Assembly (NCBI RefSeq): GCF_019112525.1
Contig: NZ_CP077800.1
Location: forward strand, 3,968,001 to 4,032,000
Direction of reading: 5' to 3'
Length of the DNA: 64,000 bases
DNA from: Modestobacter sp. L9-4
GTDB lineage: Bacteria > Actinomycetota > Actinomycetes > Mycobacteriales > Geodermatophilaceae
Shown one piece after another: positions 5,278-45,045 of the stretch. Position numbers and translations under genes: made by a program. Each line of letters begins with the position of its first letter. Position 1 is the first letter of the stretch. Under the pieces are notes generated by a model that was given only the letters and a program-made list of their open reading frames with translations, did not search any database and was not told the origin of the DNA.

Positions 5278-5877
5278 TCACCACCGACCGCGGTGCACGA
5301 CCTCCTCGACACCGCGGCGCCCGCGCTTGAGCGAGGGCGACCTCCGGTCCTCCGCGCCGGCGTAGCCGATCGACAGGCAGCCCACCGGCCGGTAGGCCCC
5401 CGGGACGCCGAACGCCGCCCGGAACCCCTCGACCCGCTCGGGCGGGACGCCGAAGAACGCCGCGGCCAGCCCCTCGTCGACCGCGGTGAGCAGCATCAGC
5501 AGCGAGGCCATGCCGGTGTCGACGTCCCAGTACGGGACCGGCCAGCGGGCCTCGTCGCGGTCGGTCCAGCCCTTGTCGGGCTCGGCGTAGCGGTCCAGGT
5601 AGGCGGCCTTGTGCGACAGCGGGACGACCAGCAGGGGAGCGCGGCGCATCCGGGTGAGCCAGCCGTCCGGCGTCCCGCCGTCGGTGGTCGCCGCCCAGAA
5701 CCGGTCGCGTTCCTCGGCGGTCTCCAGCACCAGGAACGCCCAGCCCTGGCTGAACCCGGCCGAGGGGGCACGGATCGCGTGCTCCAGCAGCCGTTCCCGC
5801 ACCTCGGCGGGCACGGGCCGGTCGGGGTCGTAGTCGCGCACCATCCGCCGGCGGCGGACGACGTCCCGGAACTCCAT
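5278..5877 (-). CDS. Nitroreductase-family FMN-binding protein
   Basis: This 199-residue protein shows the nitroreductase family pattern: MEFRDVVRRRRMVRDY with FMN-binding arginines at the N-terminus, APSAGFSQGWAFLV, GMASLLMLLTAVDEGLAAAF, and a C-terminal PVGCLSIGYAG. Members use FMN and NAD(P)H for oxidoreduction of nitro or other substrates; the physiological substrate is unknown. The ATG lies 30 bases after the stop of the TIGR03086 gene and its own stop is 16 bases before the SDR start, so all three are probably co-transcribed. Confidence 0.88.
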   Translation of the reverse strand: MEFRDVVRRRRMVRDYDPDRPVPAEVRERLLEHAIRAPSAGFSQGWAFLVLETAEERDRFWAATTDGGTPDGWLTRMRRAPLLVVPLSHKAAYLDRYAEPDKGWTDRDEARWPVPYWDVDTGMASLLMLLTAVDEGLAAAFFGVPPERVEGFRAAFGVPGAYRPVGCLSIGYAGAEDRRSPSLKRGRRGVEEVVHRGRW

Positions 5878-5907
5878 CCCGCCACCCTGTCACCCGGGTG
5901 CGACGGG

Positions 5908-6456
5908 TCAGCCGGCGCGGCCGAGCCGGGCGAGCACGCGGGTGGAGCGGGCCGCCGAGTCCGGGACCGCGAGCGCCGGGCCGCAGATGCCCTCCATGTG
6001 CAGCGCCGGTCCGAAGCCGTCGGCGCCGGCCTCGACGAGGTCCAGCTCGGCGTCGGTGAGGGCGGGGTCGGCACCGACGGCCCGGGCGAGGTCCCACCGG
6101 TGCACGACCATGTCCCAGACGTAGAACCGGGCGAACGCCTCGCCCACGGTGGTCGGCCCGAAGAAGCCGTCGAAGGCCCGGGCGGGCACGTCGTCGTCGG
6201 CGAGCGCGGCCGCCACCCGGGCGCTGTGCTCGCGCCAGGCGCCGGCCGGGTCGGCGGCGACGTCGGGCGCCTCGCCCAGGTCGACGCCGTGGGTGCCCAG
6301 GAAGTCCCGCTGGGTCGAGACCAGGTGGGCGACCACGTCGGCGGCGGTCCAGCCCGGGCAGGGTGACGGTGCGCCCCACCCCGACGGCGGGACGGCGTCC
6401 AGGAGCCGGCTCAGGGGAGCATCTGCTGTGGCGTGCAGTTCCGCGGTCGGGTTCAC
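5908..6456 (-). CDS. TIGR03086-type metal-binding protein (mycothiol maleylpyruvate isomerase N-terminal fold)
   Basis: This 182-residue protein resembles the DinB/MDMPI helical-bundle family: CPGWTAADVVAHLVS and YVWDMVVHRWDLARA carry the histidines expected to bind a divalent metal. Some relatives use mycothiol as a thiol cofactor; the reaction is not known here. GTG 6456 is chosen because TACGTT lies exactly six bases upstream, the leaderless arrangement. It is divergent from the AraC-type regulator with only 37 bp between start codons. Confidence 0.8.
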   Translation of the reverse strand: MNPTAELHATADAPLSRLLDAVPPSGWGAPSPCPGWTAADVVAHLVSTQRDFLGTHGVDLGEAPDVAADPAGAWREHSARVAAALADDDVPARAFDGFFGPTTVGEAFARFYVWDMVVHRWDLARAVGADPALTDAELDLVEAGADGFGPALHMEGICGPALAVPDSAARSTRVLARLGRAG

Positions 6457-6462
6457 GGCCAG

Positions 6463-6468
6463 AACGTA
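6463..6468 (-). promoter_or_regulatory. Leaderless-type -10 (TACGTT) of the TIGR03086 gene
   Basis: On the minus strand TACGTT is followed by six bases and GTG 6456. The divergent gene's own candidate -10 (CAGGCT, 6481-6486) is 12 bases away, so the two promoters are almost back to back. Confidence 0.55.
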
Positions 6469-6493
6469 GGAGCCTGCGGCAGGCTGGGTCTTG

Positions 6494-7333
6494 ATGAAAC
6501 CCGACAGCACCCCCTCGACCGACGCGGTCGAGCGTGCCCACCTCAAGGACCCCGGCGACGCCTCCCACGTGATGTACCGCTATCCGGCCGCCCCGGAGTT
6601 CGCCGACCTCCTCCAGCGCTTCTGGATCCCGGTGTGGTCGCTGCCGCCGGGGCAGGAGGCGCCGCAGCGGGTCCTGCAGTACCCCGTGTCGCTGATCGTG
6701 GTCGCCCACGACTACGCCCGCTTCTACGGCGTCGTCTCCGGGCTGTCGACGACCACGCTGACCGGCACCGGGTGGGCGGTCGGCGTGCTGTGCGCACCGG
6801 CCGCCGGGACGCTGCTGGCCCGCGGCTCGATGACCCGCTACACCGACCGGCACGTCGACGTCCGCGAGGTGCTGGGCCCCGCGGGGGAGGAGCTGGTCAC
6901 CCGGGTGCGCTCCGCGATGGCCCCCGCCCCGTCCGACCCGGTGGCGCACGCCGCCGCCATGGCCGCCTTCGAGGACGCGCTGCGGCCGCTGCTGCCCGTG
7001 GACGAGGAGGGGCTGCTGGTCAACCGGGTCGTGGCGTTCGTCGAGTCCGACCGGGACGTCGTCCGGGTGGCCCAGGTGTGCGCGGAGTTCGACCTGCCCG
7101 AGCGGGCGCTGCAGCGGCTGGTGCACCGCCGGCTCGGCCTGACGCCCAAGTGGCTGATCCAGCGCCGGCGGCTGCAGGAGGCCGCCGAACGGCTGCGGAC
7201 CGGCCCGGTCGACCTGGCCGAGCTCGCCGTGCAGCTGGGCTACGCCGACCAGCCGCACCTGACCCGCGACTTCGGCCAGGTGACCGGCATGACGCCCCGC
7301 CAGTTCGCCGACCGGCACGCGCCCGGGACGTGA
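6494..7333 (+). CDS. AraC-family transcriptional regulator
   Basis: This protein of 279 residues ends in an AraC/XylS DNA-binding domain with two helix-turn-helices: VRVAQVCAEFDLPERALQRL (about residues 189-208) and DLAELAVQLGYADQPHLTRD (about 237-256), followed by FGQVTGMTPRQFAD. The N-terminal 170 residues form an AraC-type sensing region of the DUF6597 kind. The ATG at 6494 is used; the preceding TTG at 6491 is also possible because CAGGCT ends six bases ahead of it. It is divergent from the three-gene oxidoreductase operon and is its likely regulator. Confidence 0.85.
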   Translation: MKPDSTPSTDAVERAHLKDPGDASHVMYRYPAAPEFADLLQRFWIPVWSLPPGQEAPQRVLQYPVSLIVVAHDYARFYGVVSGLSTTTLTGTGWAVGVLCAPAAGTLLARGSMTRYTDRHVDVREVLGPAGEELVTRVRSAMAPAPSDPVAHAAAMAAFEDALRPLLPVDEEGLLVNRVVAFVESDRDVVRVAQVCAEFDLPERALQRLVHRRLGLTPKWLIQRRRLQEAAERLRTGPVDLAELAVQLGYADQPHLTRDFGQVTGMTPRQFADRHAPGT

Positions 7334-7357
7334 CGCGGGCCGCCCCCACGCAGTCCC

Positions 7358-7363
7358 TAGGCT
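7358..7363 (+). promoter_or_regulatory. Leaderless-type -10 (TAGGCT) of priA
   Basis: TAGGCT is followed by GGTGGC and then the GTG start at 7370. Transcription would begin at or next to the start codon. Confidence 0.6.
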
Positions 7364-7369
7364 GGTGGC

Positions 7370-8101
7370 GTGCCGAAGCTGCAGCTGCTCCCCGCCGTCG
7401 ACGTCGCCGACGGCCTCGCCGTCCGCCTGGTGCAGGGGGAGGCCGGGAGCGAGACCTCCTACGGCGACCCCCTCGAGGCCGCCCTCGCCTGGCAGCGCGA
7501 CGGCGCCGAGTGGGTGCACCTGGTCGACCTCGACGCCGCGTTCGGCCGCGGCTCGAACCGCGAGCTGCTGGCGGAGGTGGTCGGGCAGCTCGACGTCGAC
7601 GTGGAGCTGTCCGGCGGCATCCGCGACGACGAGTCGCTGGCCGCCGCGCTGGCCACCGGTTGCCGCCGGGTCAACCTCGGCACCGCCGCGCTGGAGTCGC
7701 CGGAGTGGTGCGCGCGGGCGATCGCCGAGCACGGTGACCGCATCGCCGTCGGCCTGGACGTGCGCGGCACCCGGCTGGCCGCCCGCGGCTGGACCAAGGA
7801 GGGCGGCGAGCTCTACGAGACCCTCGCCCGCCTGGACGACGAGGGCTGCGCCCGCTACGTGGTCACCGACATCACCAAGGACGGCACGCTGCGCGGCCCG
7901 AACCTGGAGCTGCTGCGCGAGGTCTGCGCCGCCACCCCGCGGCCGGTGATCGCCTCCGGCGGGGTCAGCTCGCTGGAGGACATCCGGGCGCTGGCCGGGC
8001 TGGCCGGCATCGGCGTCGAGGGCGCGATCGTCGGCAAGGCGCTCTACGCCGGCCAGTTCACCCTGCCCGAGGCGCTGCAGGTCACCGAGGAGCTCGCGTG
8101 A
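7370..8101 (+). CDS. priA: Bifunctional phosphoribosyl isomerase A (HisA/TrpF)
   Basis: This 243-residue (beta/alpha)8 barrel isomerises ProFAR (histidine pathway) and, in actinobacteria, phosphoribosyl anthranilate (tryptophan pathway). The catalytic aspartates are visible as PAVDV (D11) and [10 protein letters not shown] (D167); R19, D130 and the ARGWTKEGG loop (R139, W141) match the dual-substrate PriA type rather than a HisA-only enzyme. No trpF gene occurs among the trp genes of this window, which agrees with dual use. A RidA gene overlaps the stop (GTGA), followed by hisF. Confidence 0.93.
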
Positions 8102-37300: not shown

Positions 37301-37921
37301 GTGACCAACGCACCGACCAGGGTCCTCATCGCCGAGGACGAGGCTCTCATCCGTCTCGACCTCAAGGAGATGCTGGAGGAGGAGGGCTACGTCGTCGTCG
37401 CCGAGGTCGGTGACGGCCAGGCGGCCGTCGACCAGGCCCAGCAGCTGCGACCCGACCTCGTCATCCTCGACGTCCAGATGCCCGTGCTGGACGGTATCGC
37501 CGCCGCCGAGCAGATCGCCTCCGCCCGGATCGCCCCGGTGATCGTGCTGACCGCCTTCAGCCAGCGCGAGCTGGTGGAGCGCGCCCGCGACGCCGGCGCG
37601 ATGGCCTACCTCGTCAAGCCGTTCAACAAGAACGACCTCGTCCCGGCGATCGAGGTCGCCGTGGGCCGCTTCCAGGAGATGCACGCCCTCGACGCCGAGG
37701 TCACCGACCTCAAGGAGCGGCTGGAGGCGCGCAAGGTCGTCGAGCAGGCCAAGGGCCGCCTGATGGCCGAGCGCGGCATCACCGAGGCCGAGGCGTTCCG
37801 CTGGATCCAGCGCACCGCCATGAACGAGCGCACGTCGATGCGCGCGCTCTCCGAGGCGATCCTCGCCACGGAGACGCCGGCGGGCGACAGTGCGTCGGTG
37901 ACGGGTCCCGCCGGGGTCTGA
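37301..37921 (+). CDS. pdtaR: ANTAR-domain response regulator (PdtaR type)
   Basis: This 206-residue regulator has a receiver domain (acidic pocket in VLIAEDEALIRLDL, phosphorylated Asp in VILDVQMPVLDG, Lys in YLVKPFN) and a C-terminal ANTAR RNA-binding domain (ERLEARKVVEQAKGRLMAE, then the EAEAFRWIQRTAMNERTSMR region). ANTAR proteins bind paired hexaloop hairpins and block termination. The sensor kinase PdtaS is not in the window. Leaderless GTG start. Confidence 0.93.
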   Translation: MTNAPTRVLIAEDEALIRLDLKEMLEEEGYVVVAEVGDGQAAVDQAQQLRPDLVILDVQMPVLDGIAAAEQIASARIAPVIVLTAFSQRELVERARDAGAMAYLVKPFNKNDLVPAIEVAVGRFQEMHALDAEVTDLKERLEARKVVEQAKGRLMAERGITEAEAFRWIQRTAMNERTSMRALSEAILATETPAGDSASVTGPAGV

Positions 37922-37951: not shown

Positions 37952-38149
37952 GTTGCGCCGATGTGTCGGCGTGTCCGCCGTGTGGCACCGGTGCGACGCG
38001 GAGGTCACGACCTCATCACGGTGCACACAGCAGTGCTCTCCACCCGATCGGTGGCGGTTAGGTTTCTCCCCACTGATCGGGCCCCGGCAGGCGCACCTGG
38101 CCTGCCGCGGGGCGATGGAGACGTACTCACACCCCTCGGGAGTTTCTTG

Positions 38150-39511
38150 ATGCGCACAGGCACGATCGCCCGCGCCACCGCCCTCTCCGGCGCGGCACTG
38201 CTCGCCCTGAGCGCCTGCGGCGGCAGCAGCGACGACGCGGCCGGCAGCTCCGCCGGAGCCTCCGCCGGCGGCTCGTCCGCTGCCACCGGCGGCGGGGCCA
38301 AGCAGGTCAACGTCTACGGCACCGACGGCAACATGGGCAACGCCCTCGGCGAGGACTTCCAGGCCCAGGGCGCACTGGCCGGCATGAAGGGCACCACGCC
38401 CCTCACGAAGCTCGGGCCGGACTTCACCGACCGGCTCAAGAAGGTCGACCCGAACCTCAAGGACTTCAACTACGCCGGTGAGTCCTACGACGCCGTGATG
38501 CTGATCGCCATGGCCTCGCAGTCGGCCGGCAGCACGGACGCGCGCACCTTCGGGCCCTACGTCAACGCCCTCACCGTGGGTGGCGACAAGTGCTCCGACT
38601 TCGCCGCCTGCGTGGAGATCATCAAGGCCGGCGGGAACGTCGACTACGACGGCATCTCCGGTCCGCTGAGCTTCGCCGAGGCCGGGGAGCCGGCCCAGGC
38701 CAGCTTCGGTCTGCTGCAGTTCGGCACCGACAACGCCCTCGACGACAGCAAGACCAACTTCGTCATCGCCGGTGACGAGGCCAACGCCACCACCGAGGCC
38801 GGCCCTGCGCCGGTCGCGGCGGGCGCCACCACCGACAAGCCGCTCACCATCGGCACCCTGCTGCCCGAGACCGGCAACCTCGCCTTCCTCGGCCCGCCGG
38901 AGGTCGCCGGCGTCCAGCTGGCGATCAACGACATCAACGCCGCGGGCGGTGTCCTCGGCCAGCCGATCACGCTGGTGACCGGTGACTCCGGTGACGCCTC
39001 CACCGACACCGCCACCCAGACCGTCGACCGCCTCCTGCAGTCCGGCGTCAACGCGATCGTCGGTGCCGCGTCCTCCGGTGTCAGCCTGACCGTGATCGAC
39101 ACGATCACGCAGGCCGGCGTCATGCAGATCTCCCCGGCGAACACGTCCGACCAGTTCACCGACTACGCCGACCAGGGGCTGTACTTCCGCACCGCGCCCC
39201 CGGACACCCTGCAGGCCACCGCCCTGTCGGACCTGATCCTGCAGGACGGCAACAACACCGTCGGCATCCTCGCCACCAACGACCCGTACGGCACGGGCCT
39301 GGCGGAGAACACCAAGAACAACCTGATCGCCGGTGGTCTCTCCGAGGACTCGATCCAGACGGTCATCTACGACCCGCAGGCCGCGAACTACGACGCCGAG
39401 GTCCAGCAGATGACCACCTTCGCCCCCGACGGCATCGTCGTCATCGGGTTCGAGGAGTCCTCCCGGATCATCCAGGGTCTGAACACGAACGGCGTGGGCC
39501 CGCAGCGCTGA
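38150..39511 (+). CDS. LivK-type amino-acid substrate-binding lipoprotein, apparently circularly permuted
   Basis: This 453-residue protein has a normal lipoprotein signal with lipobox LSAC (Cys23) and a Gly/Ser/Ala linker to residue 50. Then the order is reversed. Residues 51 to about 205 (KQVNVYGTDGNMGNALGEDF to LLQFGTDNALDDSKTNFV) are what normally forms the C-terminal part of LivK-like proteins. Residues 229-453 (DKPLTIGTLLPETGNLAFLG to IIQGLNTNGVGPQR) are the normal N-terminal part. In ordinary members GVGPQ is followed directly by the KQ-YxxDGN segment, so the ends are the natural cut point. A 24-residue Ala/Thr linker joins the halves. Good GGGAG site before ATG 38150; perfect terminator after. 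Confidence 0.85.
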   Translation: MRTGTIARATALSGAALLALSACGGSSDDAAGSSAGASAGGSSAATGGGAKQVNVYGTDGNMGNALGEDFQAQGALAGMKGTTPLTKLGPDFTDRLKKVDPNLKDFNYAGESYDAVMLIAMASQSAGSTDARTFGPYVNALTVGGDKCSDFAACVEIIKAGGNVDYDGISGPLSFAEAGEPAQASFGLLQFGTDNALDDSKTNFVIAGDEANATTEAGPAPVAAGATTDKPLTIGTLLPETGNLAFLGPPEVAGVQLAINDINAAGGVLGQPITLVTGDSGDASTDTATQTVDRLLQSGVNAIVGAASSGVSLTVIDTITQAGVMQISPANTSDQFTDYADQGLYFRTAPPDTLQATALSDLILQDGNNTVGILATNDPYGTGLAENTKNNLIAGGLSEDSIQTVIYDPQAANYDAEVQQMTTFAPDGIVVIGFEESSRIIQGLNTNGVGPQR

Positions 39512-39531
39512 TGCGCTGAACCCGCTCCTGG

Positions 39532-39567
39532 CTGCGGCCCGGCACCCCTCGGGGTGCCGGGCCGCAG
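39532..39567 (+). terminator. Terminator hairpin of the substrate-binding protein gene
   Basis: CTGCGGCCCGGCACCC pairs perfectly with GGGTGCCGGGCCGCAG around a CTCG loop (16 pairs), 20 bases after the stop. Confidence 0.85.
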
Positions 39568-39594
39568 TGCTGTCCAGGGGGCAGACTCGTCTCC

Positions 39595-40023
39595 GTGGAC
39601 GACCGTGCGCCCCTGCTGGCCCGCTACCGCGAGCTGGTGCTCGACGAGCTGCCCCGCCGGGCCCGCGCCGAGCGGTGGGTCGTGACCGCCGACCACTGCT
39701 TCGGGCGGATCGTGCTCGACCACGCCGTCGGGGGCCGCTGGTACGACGTCCTGGACCGCGGCCGCTCACCGGCCTTCACGCAGCTGGACGACGCGCAGCT
39801 GCGCGCGGCGGTGGACGTGGCCGAGCGGATCTCGGCCGAGGGTGACCCGCTGCTGCGCCAGCTCGACGCGCAGAGCCTGCGCTGGCGCGGCAAGGCCGCC
39901 AAGCCCGCGCCCCGCGGCACGGCCGTCGAGCAGGCCCCGCGTGGCAAGGCCGCCGGGGCGACTCCGCGCGGCACGGCCGCCGAGCAGGCCTCGCGCGGCA
40001 CGGCCGCTGAGCCGGCCCCGTGA
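39595..40023 (+). CDS. Conserved hypothetical protein with C-terminal 9-residue repeats
   Basis: This 142-residue soluble protein has about 105 conserved residues (ELVLDELPRRARAERWVVTA, DHCFGRIVLDHAVGGRWYD, QSLRWRGKAA) of an actinobacterial family I cannot name. Four nine-residue repeats follow (GTAVEQAPR, GKAAGATPR, GTAAEQASR, GTAAEPAP). The tail is basic/alanine-rich and probably disordered. GTG start with CAGACT seven bases upstream. The next gene overlaps by four bases (GTGA). Confidence 0.7.
   Translation: MDDRAPLLARYRELVLDELPRRARAERWVVTADHCFGRIVLDHAVGGRWYDVLDRGRSPAFTQLDDAQLRAAVDVAERISAEGDPLLRQLDAQSLRWRGKAAKPAPRGTAVEQAPRGKAAGATPRGTAAEQASRGTAAEPAP
39916..40020 (+). repeat. Four 27-bp tandem repeats in the 39595 gene
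   Basis: Units at 39916-39942, 39943-39969, 39970-39996 and 39997-40020 (last shortened by the stop) encode nine-residue GTAAEQAxR repeats, all in frame. Confidence 0.85.
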
Positions 40024-40451
40024 CGGTGAGCGTCGTCGCGGTGGCGCACCTGCTCCTGGTGGGCGCCTACGCGGGCTTCCAGTGGACCGTTCGGGCGCTG
40101 GTCTACCCGCAGTTCACCGCGGTCCCGGCGGACGCCTCGGCCGCCTACGAGCGCAGCCACTCCCAGCGCATCTCCCGGGTGGTCGGGCCGCTGTTCGCCG
40201 GGCAGCTGGTCACCACCGGCTGGCTGCTGCTCGACCGGCCCGAGGGAGTCCGGCTGCTGGGGGTGGTGGCCAGCGCGGTCTGCCTGGCGGCGGTGCTGGC
40301 GGTCACCGCGCTGCTGGCCGTGCCCCGGCACCGGCAGCTCACCGACGGCTTCGACGCCGCCGCCTACGCCGGGCTGCTGCGCGCCGACTCGCTGCGGGTC
40401 GCCGCGGCCACCGCCAACGCAGCCGTCAGCGCCTGGGCCGTGCTGGGCTGA
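40020..40451 (+). CDS. Four-helix membrane protein, hypothetical
   Basis: This 143-residue protein has four hydrophobic helices (about residues 4-22, 56-74, 80-100 and 125-142) and a conserved-looking motif RALVYPQFTAVPADASAAYE between the first two. I do not know a function. GTG overlaps the stop of the preceding gene, suggesting co-expression. It is convergent with the livF end of the liv operon, with a hairpin between. Confidence 0.65.
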   Translation: MTVSVVAVAHLLLVGAYAGFQWTVRALVYPQFTAVPADASAAYERSHSQRISRVVGPLFAGQLVTTGWLLLDRPEGVRLLGVVASAVCLAAVLAVTALLAVPRHRQLTDGFDAAAYAGLLRADSLRVAAATANAAVSAWAVLG

Positions 40452-40645: not shown

Positions 40646-41497
40646 CTACTTGGCCTTGGCCAGGGTGCCCAGGTACAGCTCGATGACCTTCGGGTCGTTC
40701 ATCAGCGACTGGCCGGTGTCGGTGTAGGCGTTGCGGCCCTGGTCCAGCACGTAGCCGCGGTCGCAGATCTGCAGGCACCGGCGGGCGTTCTGCTCGACCA
40801 TGATGATCGAGACGCCGGTGGCGTTGATCCGCCGGCAGCGGATGAACACCTCGTCCTGGTAGGCGGGGGACAGGCCCGCCGACGGCTCGTCGAGCAGCAG
40901 CACCGACGGGTCCATCATCAGCGCGCGGCCCATCGCGACCATCTGCCGCTCACCGCCGGACAGCGACCCGGCCTTGCCCTTGCGCCGCTCACCGAGCAGC
41001 GGGAACAGGTCGACGACGTAGTCGAAGCGCTCCTTGAACGACTTGGGCCGCAGGTACACGCCCATCTGCATGTTCTCCTCGATGGACAGCGAGGGGAACA
41101 CGTTGTTGTTCTGCGGCACGTAGCCCACGCCCATCGACACCAGCTGGTGCGCCGGTGCACCGGTGATCGACTCACCGCGCAGCGTCACCCCACCCGAGCG
41201 CACCGGGATGAGCCCGAACAGCGTCTTCAGCAGCGTCGACTTGCCGGCACCGTTGGGCCCGATGATGCCGACGAGCTCGCCGTCCTGCAGGTAGAAGTCA
41301 CAGCCACGCAGGATGTTGACCCCGGGCACGTAGCCGGCGACCAGGTCGTCGGCCCGCACCAGGGCGCCCTCGGCGAGCTTCAGGTGCTCCTCGCGGGTGG
41401 CGGCCTTCTCCGCGGGGGACAGCTCGCCGGTGGCGACGGTCTGCGCGCGGGTGACGTCCTCGCCGGTCTCGTCGACCTCGAACAGCGGCTCGCTCAC
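40646..41497 (-). CDS. livF: Branched-chain amino-acid ABC transporter, ATP-binding protein LivF
   Basis: This 283-residue ATPase shows Walker A GPNGAGKS (80-87), signature LSGGERQMVAMGRALM, Walker B SVLLLDEPSAGLSP and H-loop IIMVEQNARR. LivF normally has about 235 residues; here about 45 acidic residues precede the ATPase fold. It pairs with LivG to energise LivHM. GTG start overlaps the livG stop (GTGA). Last gene of the operon, followed by a strong hairpin. Confidence 0.92.
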   Translation of the reverse strand: MSEPLFEVDETGEDVTRAQTVATGELSPAEKAATREEHLKLAEGALVRADDLVAGYVPGVNILRGCDFYLQDGELVGIIGPNGAGKSTLLKTLFGLIPVRSGGVTLRGESITGAPAHQLVSMGVGYVPQNNNVFPSLSIEENMQMGVYLRPKSFKERFDYVVDLFPLLGERRKGKAGSLSGGERQMVAMGRALMMDPSVLLLDEPSAGLSPAYQDEVFIRCRRINATGVSIIMVEQNARRCLQICDRGYVLDQGRNAYTDTGQSLMNDPKVIELYLGTLAKAK

Positions 41498-42552
41498 ACC
41501 AGACCACCCTTCTCGTCACTGCGCTCGGCATTCGGGACGTGCGGTGCGCCGTGCTCCTCGCGGGCGATCTCCGCCTCCACCTCGGCGAGGACCCGGTCCT
41601 CCTCCTCGACGGTGAGCGGGGCGTCGTGGTGCGCGCCCAGGTAGGCGTCGACGACCGCCTGGTTCTGCGAGATGGACTCCGGCGGGCCCTCGGCGATGAC
41701 CTTGCCGGCGGCCATGACCACGACCCAGTCGCTGATGTCGCGGACGACGTCCATGTCGTGCTCGACGAAGATGACCGTCATGCCCTCCTCGCGGAGGTCC
41801 TTGACGTGCCCGAGCAGGCTCTGGGTCAGCGCCGGGTTCACCCCGGCCATCGGCTCGTCGAGCATGACGACCTTGGGGTCGCTCATCAGCGCGCGGGCCA
41901 TCTCCAGGAGCTTGCGCTGACCGCCGGAGAGGATGCCGGCGAAGTCGTCCTTCTTGGCGTCGAGCTTGAACCGCCGGAGCAGGTCCATCGCCTTCTCGGT
42001 GTTCTCCCTCTCCTGGGCGCGCCACCCGCCGGGCACGAGGGCCCGCAGGAAGCTCTCGCCGCGCTGGCCCTGGGCGCCGAGCAGCATGTTCTGCAGCACG
42101 GTGAGCCGGGACAGCGCCTTGGTCAGCTGGAAGGTGCGCACCACGCCGAGCCGGGCCACCTGGTGGGGGGCCAGCTTGCCGAGGTCCTTGCCGTCGAAGG
42201 ACCACGTGCCGGTGTTGGGCTGGTCGAAGCCGGTCATCAGGTTGAACAGCGTGGTCTTGCCGGCGCCGTTCGGTCCGATCAGGCCGGTGATGCCACCGCG
42301 CTGGATCTCGAGGTGGTCGACCGAGACCGCGGTGAGGCCACCGAAGACGCGGGTGACGCCGTCGACGACGATCGCCGGGTCGGGCTTGGCCACCCCGACC
42401 TGCCAGGGCAGGTCGGCGAGCGCAGCCTGGGCCAGCCGCTGGGGGGCGGGCCGGCCGGTCGTGGTGGCACCGCCGACAGCCGCGGCCTGGGCGGTGGACA
42501 GCTCCTCGGGCTTCGCTGCGTGGGCGCCGTGTGCGGACGGGTCAGCGGGCAT
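41494..42552 (-). CDS. livG: Branched-chain amino-acid ABC transporter, ATP-binding protein LivG
   Basis: This protein of 352 residues is longer than the usual 255. It carries Walker A GPNGAGKT (93-100), signature LSGGQRKLLEMARALM, Walker B VVMLDEPMAGVNP and the IFVEHDMDVV H-loop. Extra sequence is an Ala-rich N-terminal 58 residues and an acidic C-terminal 35 (EEEDRVLAEVEAEIAREEHG). The ATG overlaps the end of livM by 11 bases. Confidence 0.92.
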   Translation of the reverse strand: MPADPSAHGAHAAKPEELSTAQAAAVGGATTTGRPAPQRLAQAALADLPWQVGVAKPDPAIVVDGVTRVFGGLTAVSVDHLEIQRGGITGLIGPNGAGKTTLFNLMTGFDQPNTGTWSFDGKDLGKLAPHQVARLGVVRTFQLTKALSRLTVLQNMLLGAQGQRGESFLRALVPGGWRAQERENTEKAMDLLRRFKLDAKKDDFAGILSGGQRKLLEMARALMSDPKVVMLDEPMAGVNPALTQSLLGHVKDLREEGMTVIFVEHDMDVVRDISDWVVVMAAGKVIAEGPPESISQNQAVVDAYLGAHHDAPLTVEEEDRVLAEVEAEIAREEHGAPHVPNAERSDEKGGLV

Positions 42553-43540
42553 CGAGCATCACCTCTCGTCGGTCACCGAAGATGCCCTGCGGTCGGAACA
42601 CCAGCAACAGCATGAGCCCCAGGCCGACGAGGACGAAGCGGATCTGGGCGACGTCGGTGGAGGACAGCAGGCTCTCCGGGATGACGCCGTTGTCGATCAG
42701 CGCCCGCAGGCCCGTGTCGGCGAACTGCAGGATGAACAGCAGCAGCATCGACCCGATGACCGGGCCGAGCACGCGGGCCGCACCGCCGAGGATGAGCGCC
42801 GCGTAGGCCAGGAACGTGTTGGCGTTCTGGTACTGGTCGGGGATCGCCGACCCGGTGGCGACGGCGTAGACCATGCCGCCGAAGGCGCCGATCACACCGC
42901 CCAGCACCAGGGCCTGCATCTTGTAGGCGTAGACGTTCTTGCCCAGCGCCCGGACGGCGTCCTCGTCCTCACGGATGGCCTTGACCACCCGGCCCCAGGG
43001 GCTGCGCATGAGCTGCCAGACCAGCAGGCTGGAGAGGATCACCAGGATCCAGCCGATCAGCGCCACCCACAGCTCGCCACCGCTCCAGGACGTGCCCAGG
43101 ATCTGGTGGCGGCCGGCCGGGTCCCAGGGGGCCAGGTTGATGAAGTCGGCGTTGAAGGCCGACAGGCCCCGGGTGCCACCGGTCACCGGCGTGGCCGAGA
43201 CCGAGCGGAAGAGCAGGCGCAGGCCCTCCGCGGCGGCGATGGTGACGATGCTGAGGTAGTCCGCGCGCAACCGCAGGGTCGGCAGACCCAGCAGCAGCGC
43301 CAGGACCACGGCGGCGGCCACACCGACGATGACGCCGACCCAGAAGGGCAGGCCCCACATGCTGACGGAGATGGCGATGCCGAAGCCGCCGAGCATCGCG
43401 AAGGCGATCTGCCCGAAGTTCAGCAGCCCGGTGTAGCCGAAGTGCACGTTGATGCCGATGGCCAGCAGGGCGAAGAAGATCGCCTGGAAGCCGAAGAACG
43501 CCTTGCCGGCGATCGCGAACGCGTCGAGGAGCTCGGACAT
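42542..43540 (-). CDS. livM: Branched-chain amino-acid ABC transporter, permease LivM
   Basis: This 332-residue permease has about 8-10 helices. The LivM signatures are IGINVHFGYTGLLNFGQIAF near residue 30, SPWGRVVKAIREDEDAVRAL (the coupling loop) and LGGAARVLGPVIGSM. It ends with PQGIFGDRREV. With LivH it forms the membrane channel. ATG 43540 is four bases after the livH stop. Confidence 0.93.
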   Translation of the reverse strand: MSELLDAFAIAGKAFFGFQAIFFALLAIGINVHFGYTGLLNFGQIAFAMLGGFGIAISVSMWGLPFWVGVIVGVAAAVVLALLLGLPTLRLRADYLSIVTIAAAEGLRLLFRSVSATPVTGGTRGLSAFNADFINLAPWDPAGRHQILGTSWSGGELWVALIGWILVILSSLLVWQLMRSPWGRVVKAIREDEDAVRALGKNVYAYKMQALVLGGVIGAFGGMVYAVATGSAIPDQYQNANTFLAYAALILGGAARVLGPVIGSMLLLFILQFADTGLRALIDNGVIPESLLSSTDVAQIRFVLVGLGLMLLLVFRPQGIFGDRREVMLDAR

Positions 43541-43544
43541 GGCG

Positions 43545-44915
43545 TCAGCCGATCCGGGCCCGGCTGCCCAGGATGCCCTGGGGCCGCAGAACGAGGATGA
43601 CGATCAACAGAAGGAGCCCTCCGACGTACTTCACGTCACTGGGGATGACGAGGGTGGACATCTGCACGAACACACCGACGATGAGGCTGCCGACGAGGGC
43701 GCCGTAGGCGGTGCCGAGACCGCCGAGGGTGACGCCGGCGAACATGAGGAGCAGCAGGCGGAAGCCCATGTCCCACTGGACCTGGTCGGACAGGCCGAGC
43801 AGCACGCCACCGAGGGTGGCCAGTGCCCCGCCCATCATCCAGACCACGAGGATCACGCGGTTCACGTCGATGCCCGAGGAGGCGGCCAGGTCGCGGTTGT
43901 CCGCGACCGCCCGCATGGCCTTGCCGATCTTGGTGCGCTGCAGCATCAGGGCCACGAGCACCAGGACGACGACCGAGATGACGATCGAGGCCAGCGACCG
44001 GTTGGTCATGGTGAAGACGCCGTAGTCGACGGCCCGCTGGGTCTGGAAGTCCGCATACGGGCTGGAGAAGCCGCCGTAGACGATCTGGACCAGGTAGCGC
44101 AGCAGCATCGACAGGCCGATGGAGACGACCAGCGCCGCGACCAGGCCGGTGCCGCGGCGGCGCAGCGGCCGCCAGATGGCCAGCTCGTTGAGCGCGCCCA
44201 CGGCCGCACCGACCACCATCGCGATCAGCGTGGCCGGGATCAGCGGGACGCCGGCCTTGACGTTGACGTACCAGGCGACGACCGCGCCGATGGTGACGAG
44301 CTCACCGTGGGCGAAGTTGGTCAGGCCCGTCGTGCCGTAGATCAGCGACAGGCCGACCGCGCAGACGGCGATGAGCAGGCCGAAGCGGATGCCGTCGACG
44401 AGCAGCTGGACGGCCTCGACCGACCCGCCGCCGCCGTTGGAGGTGCCGTCGGCCAGGCCGAAGAGCACCGGCTGGGCGCGGTTGGGGCCGACGGTGACGG
44501 TCAGCGTCTCGCCCTTGGACCCCAGCTCGACGCCGTCGGGCAGGGCCTTCGGGTCGATGGAGACCTTGTAGTCGCCCGGACCGGGGACCGGGACGGCGAA
44601 GCGCCCGTTGGCGTCGGTCTCGGCGGTGTCGACCGCGGCGCCGGCGGCGGTCTCGACCGTGACCGGGACCCCGGCGATGGGCCCGCTCTTGCTCGTCTGC
44701 AGGGTGCCGGTGACCGACTCGTTCGCGGCCGAGGCGACGCCCGGCACGAGCATGGCCAGCGCCATGGTGAAGGCGGCGAGCAGCAGGGTCAGGACCAGTG
44801 GACGGCGGCCGGGGAGGCCCCGGGACCGACGTCGGCGGGTGGGGACCACCGCCTGGCCGCGGTCTGCCGTGCGGCTCTGACCGTGCTCTCGGGCGCGCTG
44901 TGGCGCGTGCGTCAC
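43545..44915 (-). CDS. livH: Branched-chain amino-acid ABC transporter, permease LivH with N-terminal extracytoplasmic domain
   Basis: This 457-residue protein is a LivH permease (from about residue 165: LIYGTTGLTNFAHGELVTIG, KIGKAMRAVADNRDLAASSG, FAGVTLGGLGTAYGA) preceded by an unusual N-terminus. A basic segment and signal-like helix (about 38-64) lead to about 85 residues of predicted beta-sandwich (SGPIAGVPVTVETAAG, ETDANGRFAVPVPGPGDYKV), like carboxypeptidase-regulatory or CNA-B folds. It would lie outside the membrane. GTG 44915 is chosen for GGGAGG four bases upstream; longer starts exist but lack this. Confidence 0.88.
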   Translation of the reverse strand: MTHAPQRAREHGQSRTADRGQAVVPTRRRRSRGLPGRRPLVLTLLLAAFTMALAMLVPGVASAANESVTGTLQTSKSGPIAGVPVTVETAAGAAVDTAETDANGRFAVPVPGPGDYKVSIDPKALPDGVELGSKGETLTVTVGPNRAQPVLFGLADGTSNGGGGSVEAVQLLVDGIRFGLLIAVCAVGLSLIYGTTGLTNFAHGELVTIGAVVAWYVNVKAGVPLIPATLIAMVVGAAVGALNELAIWRPLRRRGTGLVAALVVSIGLSMLLRYLVQIVYGGFSSPYADFQTQRAVDYGVFTMTNRSLASIVISVVVLVLVALMLQRTKIGKAMRAVADNRDLAASSGIDVNRVILVVWMMGGALATLGGVLLGLSDQVQWDMGFRLLLLMFAGVTLGGLGTAYGALVGSLIVGVFVQMSTLVIPSDVKYVGGLLLLIVILVLRPQGILGSRARIG

Positions 44916-44947
44916 TCGACCTCCCAGCCGTTGATTGAGCCGGGACA

Positions 44948-44965
44948 GTAACCCACGCCTGTTAC
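44948..44965. promoter_or_regulatory. GTAAC-N8-GTTAC inverted repeat upstream of livH
   Basis: A symmetric GTAAC/GTTAC pair lies 33-50 bases ahead of the livH start. It resembles actinobacterial nitrogen-regulator (GlnR-type) half-sites in sequence, but the spacing differs from the consensus, so the assignment is only a suggestion. Confidence 0.35.
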
Positions 44966-45045
44966 GCGGAACGACCTGCAGGGACACACCGTGACCTTTC
45001 TGCGACACGCCGACGTGCTACCGAACGGTCGTGCACGACCGGCCC

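Follow-up and report, generated by a model that had tools for sequence, protein, structure and literature searches.

The gene at 38150-39511 (+) of the window, which here means the whole stretch of 64,000 nucleotides analysed from Modestobacter sp. L9-4, is best explained as encoding a functional natural circular permutant, a lipoprotein of a LivHMGF-type (HAAT) importer whose family has been permuted repeatedly at two sites, and we regard this explanation as very probably correct. The original prediction had described a LivK-type lipoprotein with swapped halves and the cut at the GPQ|KQ junction, and the swap was recovered as two reversed pieces when the protein was compared with a profile of its relatives.

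The gene encodes a lipoprotein of 453 residues, and its reading frame, which had been described as intact, is open over the whole interval. All of the sequences quoted in the original prediction were found in the order given when positions were recounted: KQVNVYGTDGN at residues 51-61, YDGISGPL at 166-173, LLQFGTDN at 188-195, IGTLLPETGNLAFLGPPEV at 234-252, and IIQGLNTNGVGPQR at 440-453, the C-terminal end of the protein. The clean ribosome site and the lipoprotein signal with a Gly/Ser linker behind the lipobox cysteine were likewise confirmed, and in the alignments of relatives the lipobox cysteine is the first mature residue in most rows. The features of the gene and of the adjoining operon are as follows.

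38138..38142, plus strand: GGGAG, likely ribosome-binding site 7 bases 5' of the ATG, from the sequence
38150..38215, plus strand: lipoprotein signal peptide, residues 1-22, preceding lipobox Cys23 (38216-38218), from the sequence
38216..38299, plus strand: disordered tether, residues 23-50 (pLDDT below 50 for mature residues 1-4 and 11-26)
38300..38764, plus strand: C-terminal family half, placed first, residues 51-205 (canonical-profile columns 214-369)
38765..38842, plus strand: joining linker, residues 206-231, compared with canonical tails and leaders
38834..39508, plus strand: N-terminal family half, placed last, residues 229-453 (Peripla_BP_6 positions 1-217; canonical-profile columns 1-219)
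39532..39567, no strand assigned: perfect hairpin of 36 bases 3' of the stop, between convergent genes, possible terminator
40646..41497, minus strand: livF, ATP-binding protein (PF00005), the convergent neighbour in relatives
41494..42552, minus strand: livG, ATP-binding protein (PF00005 and PF12399)
42542..43540, minus strand: livM, permease (PF02653)
43545..45008, minus strand: livH, permease with an N-terminal CarboxypepD_reg-like domain (PF02653 at 203-474, PF13620 at 98-152)

The stretch 39505-39585, which contains the hairpin, has a fold z of -4.91. The hairpin itself is as perfect as had been claimed, but no T run was seen after it, so that its description as a perfect terminator counts as a reading only.

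The swapped order of the halves was evident from profile matches. Pfam Peripla_BP_6 (PF13458) positions 1-217 match residues 231-451 (E 4e-34), and the score of 119.2 bits against a cut-off of 31.7 places the protein in the Peripla_BP_6 / HAAT family. With a profile of 374 columns built from 109 relatives of canonical order, columns 214-369 were matched first (173 bits) and columns 1-219 after them (338 bits), so the protein departs from the order of type I binding proteins, in which the N half precedes the C half. The first-placed C half begins with the strand VYGTDGN, at the position called site A below, and the last-placed N half terminates at GVGPQR. In the alignment of canonical proteins GIGP is followed, after four or five residues, by VYGTDGN, and the layout given in the original prediction, with GPQ running on into YGTDGN, holds for the relatives of canonical order. 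Sequence matches in the PDB sit in the N-half part, their best stretches starting at residue 220 or later among the best 60 listed, and PDB sequence and NCBIfam searches returned no permuted model. The LivK-type label proved loose: the protein is a type I binding protein of Peripla_BP_6, but it reaches just 69.4 of the 477 bits set as the cut-off of the NCBIfam LivJ/LivK model (PRK15404, NF011933). Since a canonical relative likewise fell short, with 51.6 of 477 bits, the permuted order is not the cause of the low score.

Wider searches covered 397 genomes of the order, 394 of the class and 396 of the phylum, together with the families of three other genomes. Of the 115 open reading frames (ORFs) that contained both halves in the first 117 loci, 86 were permuted and 29 canonical; the canonical ones came from Mycolicibacterium, Rhodococcus, Pseudonocardia, Gordonia, Hoyosella, Lolliginicoccus, Millisia and metagenome bins. 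At least 267 loci were collected in all, and 265 ORFs contained both halves (156 permuted, 109 canonical), every permuted ORF consisting of exactly two profile pieces. Permuted forms occur in several actinobacterial families; colinear matches to a local permuted query were found, among the matches listed, in 10 of 149 genomes for the group f41, 2 of 35 for f68 and 40 of 121 for f81. The permuted form is not peculiar to the window gene or its genus, and the idea of a curiosity confined to the Geodermatophilaceae was rejected because colinear matches turned up in other families. One ORF from an Acidimicrobiales bin (L087:6001-7176) reads out of frame after the C half, probably through a sequencing error or a frameshift in the linker.

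The permuted ORFs fall into two classes by cut site; the two sites are discrete, lie roughly 21 columns from each other and flank one C-lobe strand, and a single cut site was accordingly rejected. In site-A ORFs the N piece, placed last, stops at profile column 216-220 (117 ORFs, which include many repeated loci and represent 89 distinct rows); at site B it stops at column 239-241 in 38 of 39 ORFs, the remaining one being N-masked (again with many repeats, 35 distinct rows). On the canonical model, site A corresponds to the loop that joins helix 250-259 to strand 269-273, and site B to the one from helix 279-283 to strand 294-298. The strand between them, VYGTD (E269-273), is taken here to belong to the C-lobe on the basis of LivJ-type topology. 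Site B falls after this strand and the DGN segment, so that site-B proteins end in ...YGTDGNMGNALGENFDAG and start with the next segment.

The joining linkers suggest how the permuted order may have arisen. In every group the linker begins like a canonical C-terminal tail and finishes like the leader linker of the group's own relatives, a likeness judged by eye. The linker of the window protein consists of the end of an old C-terminal tail and then an Ala/Thr/Pro-rich stretch like a canonical leader linker, the canonical tail ...TEFVIVGETG* of L096 corresponding to ...TNFVIAGDEANA. The tail ...TEFRLAEL* of L169 corresponds to ...TEFREAEISED in L160, and canonical leaders ending in GDGT or GDGV correspond to the linkers ending in GDG in f41 and in most f81 rows. 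These linkers, together with the tandem canonical copies that face the same liv operon in L154, L268 (an f41 member) and L270, could be accounted for by duplication, fusion and trimming: a canonical gene would have been duplicated in tandem, the tail of the first copy fused in frame to the leader linker of the second, and the N half of the first copy and the C half of the second trimmed away, with the first signal peptide retained. A linker made of a tail and a leader-like linker is a direct prediction of duplication. The fused tandem gene expected as an intermediate was found in none of the 265 ORFs, each of which has one N and one C piece.

In L268 (4896-8022) two canonical ORFs that face livFGMH are arranged head to tail, with about 20 bases between their stop-to-stop frames, which is the state expected before a permutation; tandem permuted copies occur in L269. 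The alternative origin is fission and fusion, in which the halves were once separate genes and were rejoined in the other order. This is a known route to circular permutants, according to the topic page in PMC3320104, and recurrence would also follow if the halves came together only as two separate chains. Yet no separate half-genes were noticed in a search that sought ORFs with both halves, the linker carries a canonical tail followed by a leader-like linker, and intact tandem copies exist, so we consider fission and fusion improbable and prefer duplication with trimming.

How often the permutation occurred was examined with a main tree of 87 of the 265 rows, from which columns 212-244 with the cut sites were left out, as were rows sharing more than 74% identity with a retained row of their own type and the gappy canonical L091 and L237. 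Six permuted groups appear in this tree, the groups having been named in part after a first tree. At site A they are the window's group with L086 (99/96), f16 (100/100), f39 with f49 (88/94), and the permuted f41 group (100/96), which is nested inside canonical f41 (100/98). At site B they are f81 with f122 and L087 (97/90), and f68, represented by L160, which adjoins the canonical L173 and L174 (99/90). The minimum number of changes on the tree is 5 when permuted and canonical states are counted and 6 when the two sites are distinguished as three states. A single clade of all site-A rows was rejected (p-AU 0.0003), also by each half alone (N 0.001, C 0.002), as were a clade of f41 with f39/f49 (p-AU 0.005) and one of the window's group with f16 and f81 (p-AU 0.002); a single clade of all site-B rows was weakly rejected (p-AU 0.024).

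The trees of the half alignments were poorly resolved, the C half comprising 128 columns. Permuted and canonical f41 form one clade (99.7) in the N-half tree, and in the C half a tree that joins them is better than the one obtained by free search, which had missed it. Canonical f41 is the nearest relative of permuted f41 in the N half (72.6% identity) as well as in the C half (69.3%); the corresponding figures against the window's group are 56.1% and 44.0%. The rejection of a single site-A clade, the nesting of f41 and the identity figures agree, and on these sequence comparisons at least four independent permutations, and probably five or six, appear to have taken place. The number depends on the model: a single clade of the window's group and f16 was not rejected (p-AU 0.33), one of both site-B groups was rejected only weakly, and the two-state minimum of 5 could hide gains and reversals. 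A rival reading is one ancient permutation that spread by descent and transfer, with several reversions or gene conversion by canonical copies. In its favour, the two-state minimum is only 5 changes and the window's group may form one clade with f16. However, two cut sites need a second permutation, a single site-A clade is rejected by the full alignment and also by either half, and the linkers resemble the tails and leaders of local canonical relatives; moreover, canonical order is general for the fold, and any reversion must recreate it. A single ancient event is thus quite unlikely, and the same kind of event would instead have been repeated within the family, always at one of two sites flanking a single C-lobe strand.

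The gene had been placed beside livHMGF. The operon does adjoin it, at 40646-45008, and links the gene to a LivHMGF-type importer, but it lies on the opposite strand in convergent orientation, and two small overlapping ORFs (39595-40023 and 40020-40451), neither with a Pfam match, separate the binding-protein gene from livF. The gene directly upstream, at 37301-37921, encodes a response regulator that carries an ANTAR RNA-binding domain. In loci of at least 9 kb, some of which come from one genome represented in two collections, livF was found in convergent orientation for 51 of the 63 ORFs cut at site A, 5 of the 6 cut at site B and 52 of the 58 in canonical order, and this tail-to-tail place therefore holds the gene in either order. 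The site-A ORFs that lack it are nine f16 loci, L138, L139 and L052, the last on a short contig. In the f16 loci (L122-L129 and L146; presumably Micromonosporaceae) the permuted protein is on a long branch and no liv genes occur within the flanks examined; five of these loci (L122, L123 and L125-L127) have a DUF6802-like gene nearby, and L122 and L123 also have a histidine kinase together with a LytTR regulator. In L162 (4808-7784) the layout departs from the usual convergent one: the operon is upstream of the site-B permuted frame (5535-7784, stop to stop), and the 5' end of this frame overlaps livH, which is encoded on the opposite strand.

LivH of the window has about 190 extra N-terminal residues, with the CarboxypepD_reg/Ig-like domain (PF13620), ahead of its permease domain, and similar extensions are seen at many loci of either order. 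The counts did not support a link of this extension with permutation: a livH with a matching extension accompanies 36 of the 58 canonical ORFs, 49 of the 63 cut at site A and all 6 cut at site B, counts in which near relatives are favoured because the window's own extension served as the query.

Structure prediction indicated that the fold would close with the new termini. The AlphaFold2 model of the window protein (33 permuted rows) has a pLDDT of 91.6 and a pTM of 0.88, with only the tether disordered, and that of the canonical relative L092 (28 rows) a pLDDT of 90.9 and a pTM of 0.88. The top PDB matches of the permuted model are Leu-binding proteins, which is consistent with a predicted bilobed, LivJ/LivK-like fold. 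Foldseek aligned 221 columns of this model with its top PDB match (TMt 0.57), and 386 columns of the canonical model (TMt 0.82); because Foldseek aligns in chain order, the shorter coverage is expected of a permuted protein. The DGN aspartate is invariant in the permuted and canonical alignments and aligns with the GDG aspartate of Atu2422, and a Cys pair (mature C126 and C132 in the window protein, C362 and C368 in L092) is invariant in both. The aspartate of the GDG/DGN motif presumably binds the ligand. Given the predicted closed fold and these invariant residues, the product is taken to be a working LivHMGF binding protein. Its ligand is most likely an amino acid or related small solute, which would be bound in the cleft and passed to LivHM as in the canonical relatives.

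As a consequence of the swapped order, the membrane tether would sit on the C-lobe in place of the N-lobe. An adaptive reading, which we hold only tentatively and think more doubtful than not, is that at least six convergent permutations moved the tether to the same C-lobe spot and were favoured together with an extended LivH, in which the additional outward-facing domain may take part in docking. If this were true, the permutation would be an adaptation of membrane geometry and not a neutral reshuffling. A different role for the protein, as a sensor or decoy that has lost transport, might be considered for f16 and L138/L139, which lack liv neighbours within the flanks examined, and for the two f16 loci where the gene adjoins a histidine kinase and response regulator; the window's group and other groups keep the convergent liv operon, which makes loss of transport highly improbable as a general explanation and argues for the transport protein proposed here.

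The permuted order is conserved around the window genome. A full-length colinear match was found in 22 of 23 genomes of the genus, and among 112 genomes of the family 95 had a match with an E value of 1e-15 or lower, 92 of these colinear and spanning residues 16-452 or more and 3 partial, whereas 17 had none; named records with the permuted order include Modestobacter, Blastococcus, Geodermatophilus and Klenkia. Against eight relatives, dN/dS of the window gene is 0.23-0.51 overall, 0.08-0.40 for the N part and 0.28-0.57 for the C part, and both halves evolve under purifying selection; the joining linker is less constrained (0.37-1.05). Misassembly of tandem paralogues from a gene that is truly canonical, which the original prediction had named as the alternative to natural permutation and which tandem canonical copies such as those of L154, L268 and L270 make conceivable in principle, can practically be dismissed, since the window genome is one closed contig of 4,224,113 bases, the same order recurs in these separate genus and family assemblies, and the frame and both halves are conserved with overall dN/dS below 1.

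A search for a normal paralogue, proposed as a check, found one more Peripla_BP_6 gene in the window genome, canonical in order, at 3,722,374-3,723,267 by the Pfam profile; elsewhere in that genome only weak partial matches to the window protein were seen. Peripla_BP_6 matches in 22 genomes of the genus number 120, of which 21 are the permuted locus; among the remaining 99, 96 align colinearly in one piece that reaches profile position 291 or beyond and 3 are partial, so within the genus the swap is limited to the window-type locus. Three genomes of the genus (L135, L136 and L137) additionally possess a relative in canonical order, whose N half is 42-45% identical and whose gene lies downstream of a livHMGF of its own, both on one strand. 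In L138 and L139, from the window's family, a second, diverged permuted copy of Klenkia type is 64% and 62% identical to the window protein, with no liv genes within the flanks examined.

Canonical and permuted orthologues that face the same operon in related bacteria amount to a replicated natural experiment. They make it testable why permutation occurs, whether through tolerance of the fold or through a gain from the moved membrane anchor, and how it occurs, through duplication and trimming. Designers of biosensors based on binding proteins gain cut sites that nature has used, and annotators a warning that order-dependent profiles detect only half of such proteins.

Among known systems, the canonical Peripla_BP_6 lipoproteins of Actinobacteria, such as L092 from Mycolicibacterium hippocampi and L096 from Pseudonocardia, share with the window protein the lipobox, the convergent livFGMH, the Cys pair and DGN, and the best identity to such relatives is about 66% in the N half and 57% in the C half; they have the ordinary order of halves and the tether on the N-lobe, whereas the window protein has neither. 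E. coli LivJ/LivK and Atu2422 (PDB 2liv, 2lbp, 3ip5, 3ipc) share the fold and the N-half sequence, but they are canonical in order and about 20-29% identical. No earlier description of the permutation in this family was found in the searched open-access literature, where TpMglB-2 (Tp0684) was the only natural permuted binding protein, the rest being engineered sensors or unrelated.

TpMglB-2, which has been crystallised, is a type I binding lipoprotein with a natural circular permutation; its authors proposed the term 'Type Ic / Cluster Bc' for it and considered that such a topology may be suited to tethering (PMC4990184). Both proteins are permuted, membrane-tethered type I lipoproteins of ABC importers, but TpMglB-2 is a glucose-binding MglB relative with an N-lobe cut, a fourth hinge crossing and an unchanged strand order in the C-lobe (PMC4990184), whereas the window protein belongs to the HAAT family and is cut in the C-lobe before the strand VYGTD, at one of two recurrent sites. 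By that definition, the window protein is 'Type Ic' in being a circularly permuted type I binding protein, but not in the sense of an N-lobe cut with unchanged C-lobe order. More generally, circular permutation arises by duplication or fission routes, with duplication intermediates documented in DNA methyltransferases and independent rearrangements in transhydrogenases, according to PMC3320104. These proteins are permuted or rearranged like the window family, but they are enzymes and not secreted, lipid-anchored binding proteins. Natural permutation is already known; its recurrence in one family is unusual.
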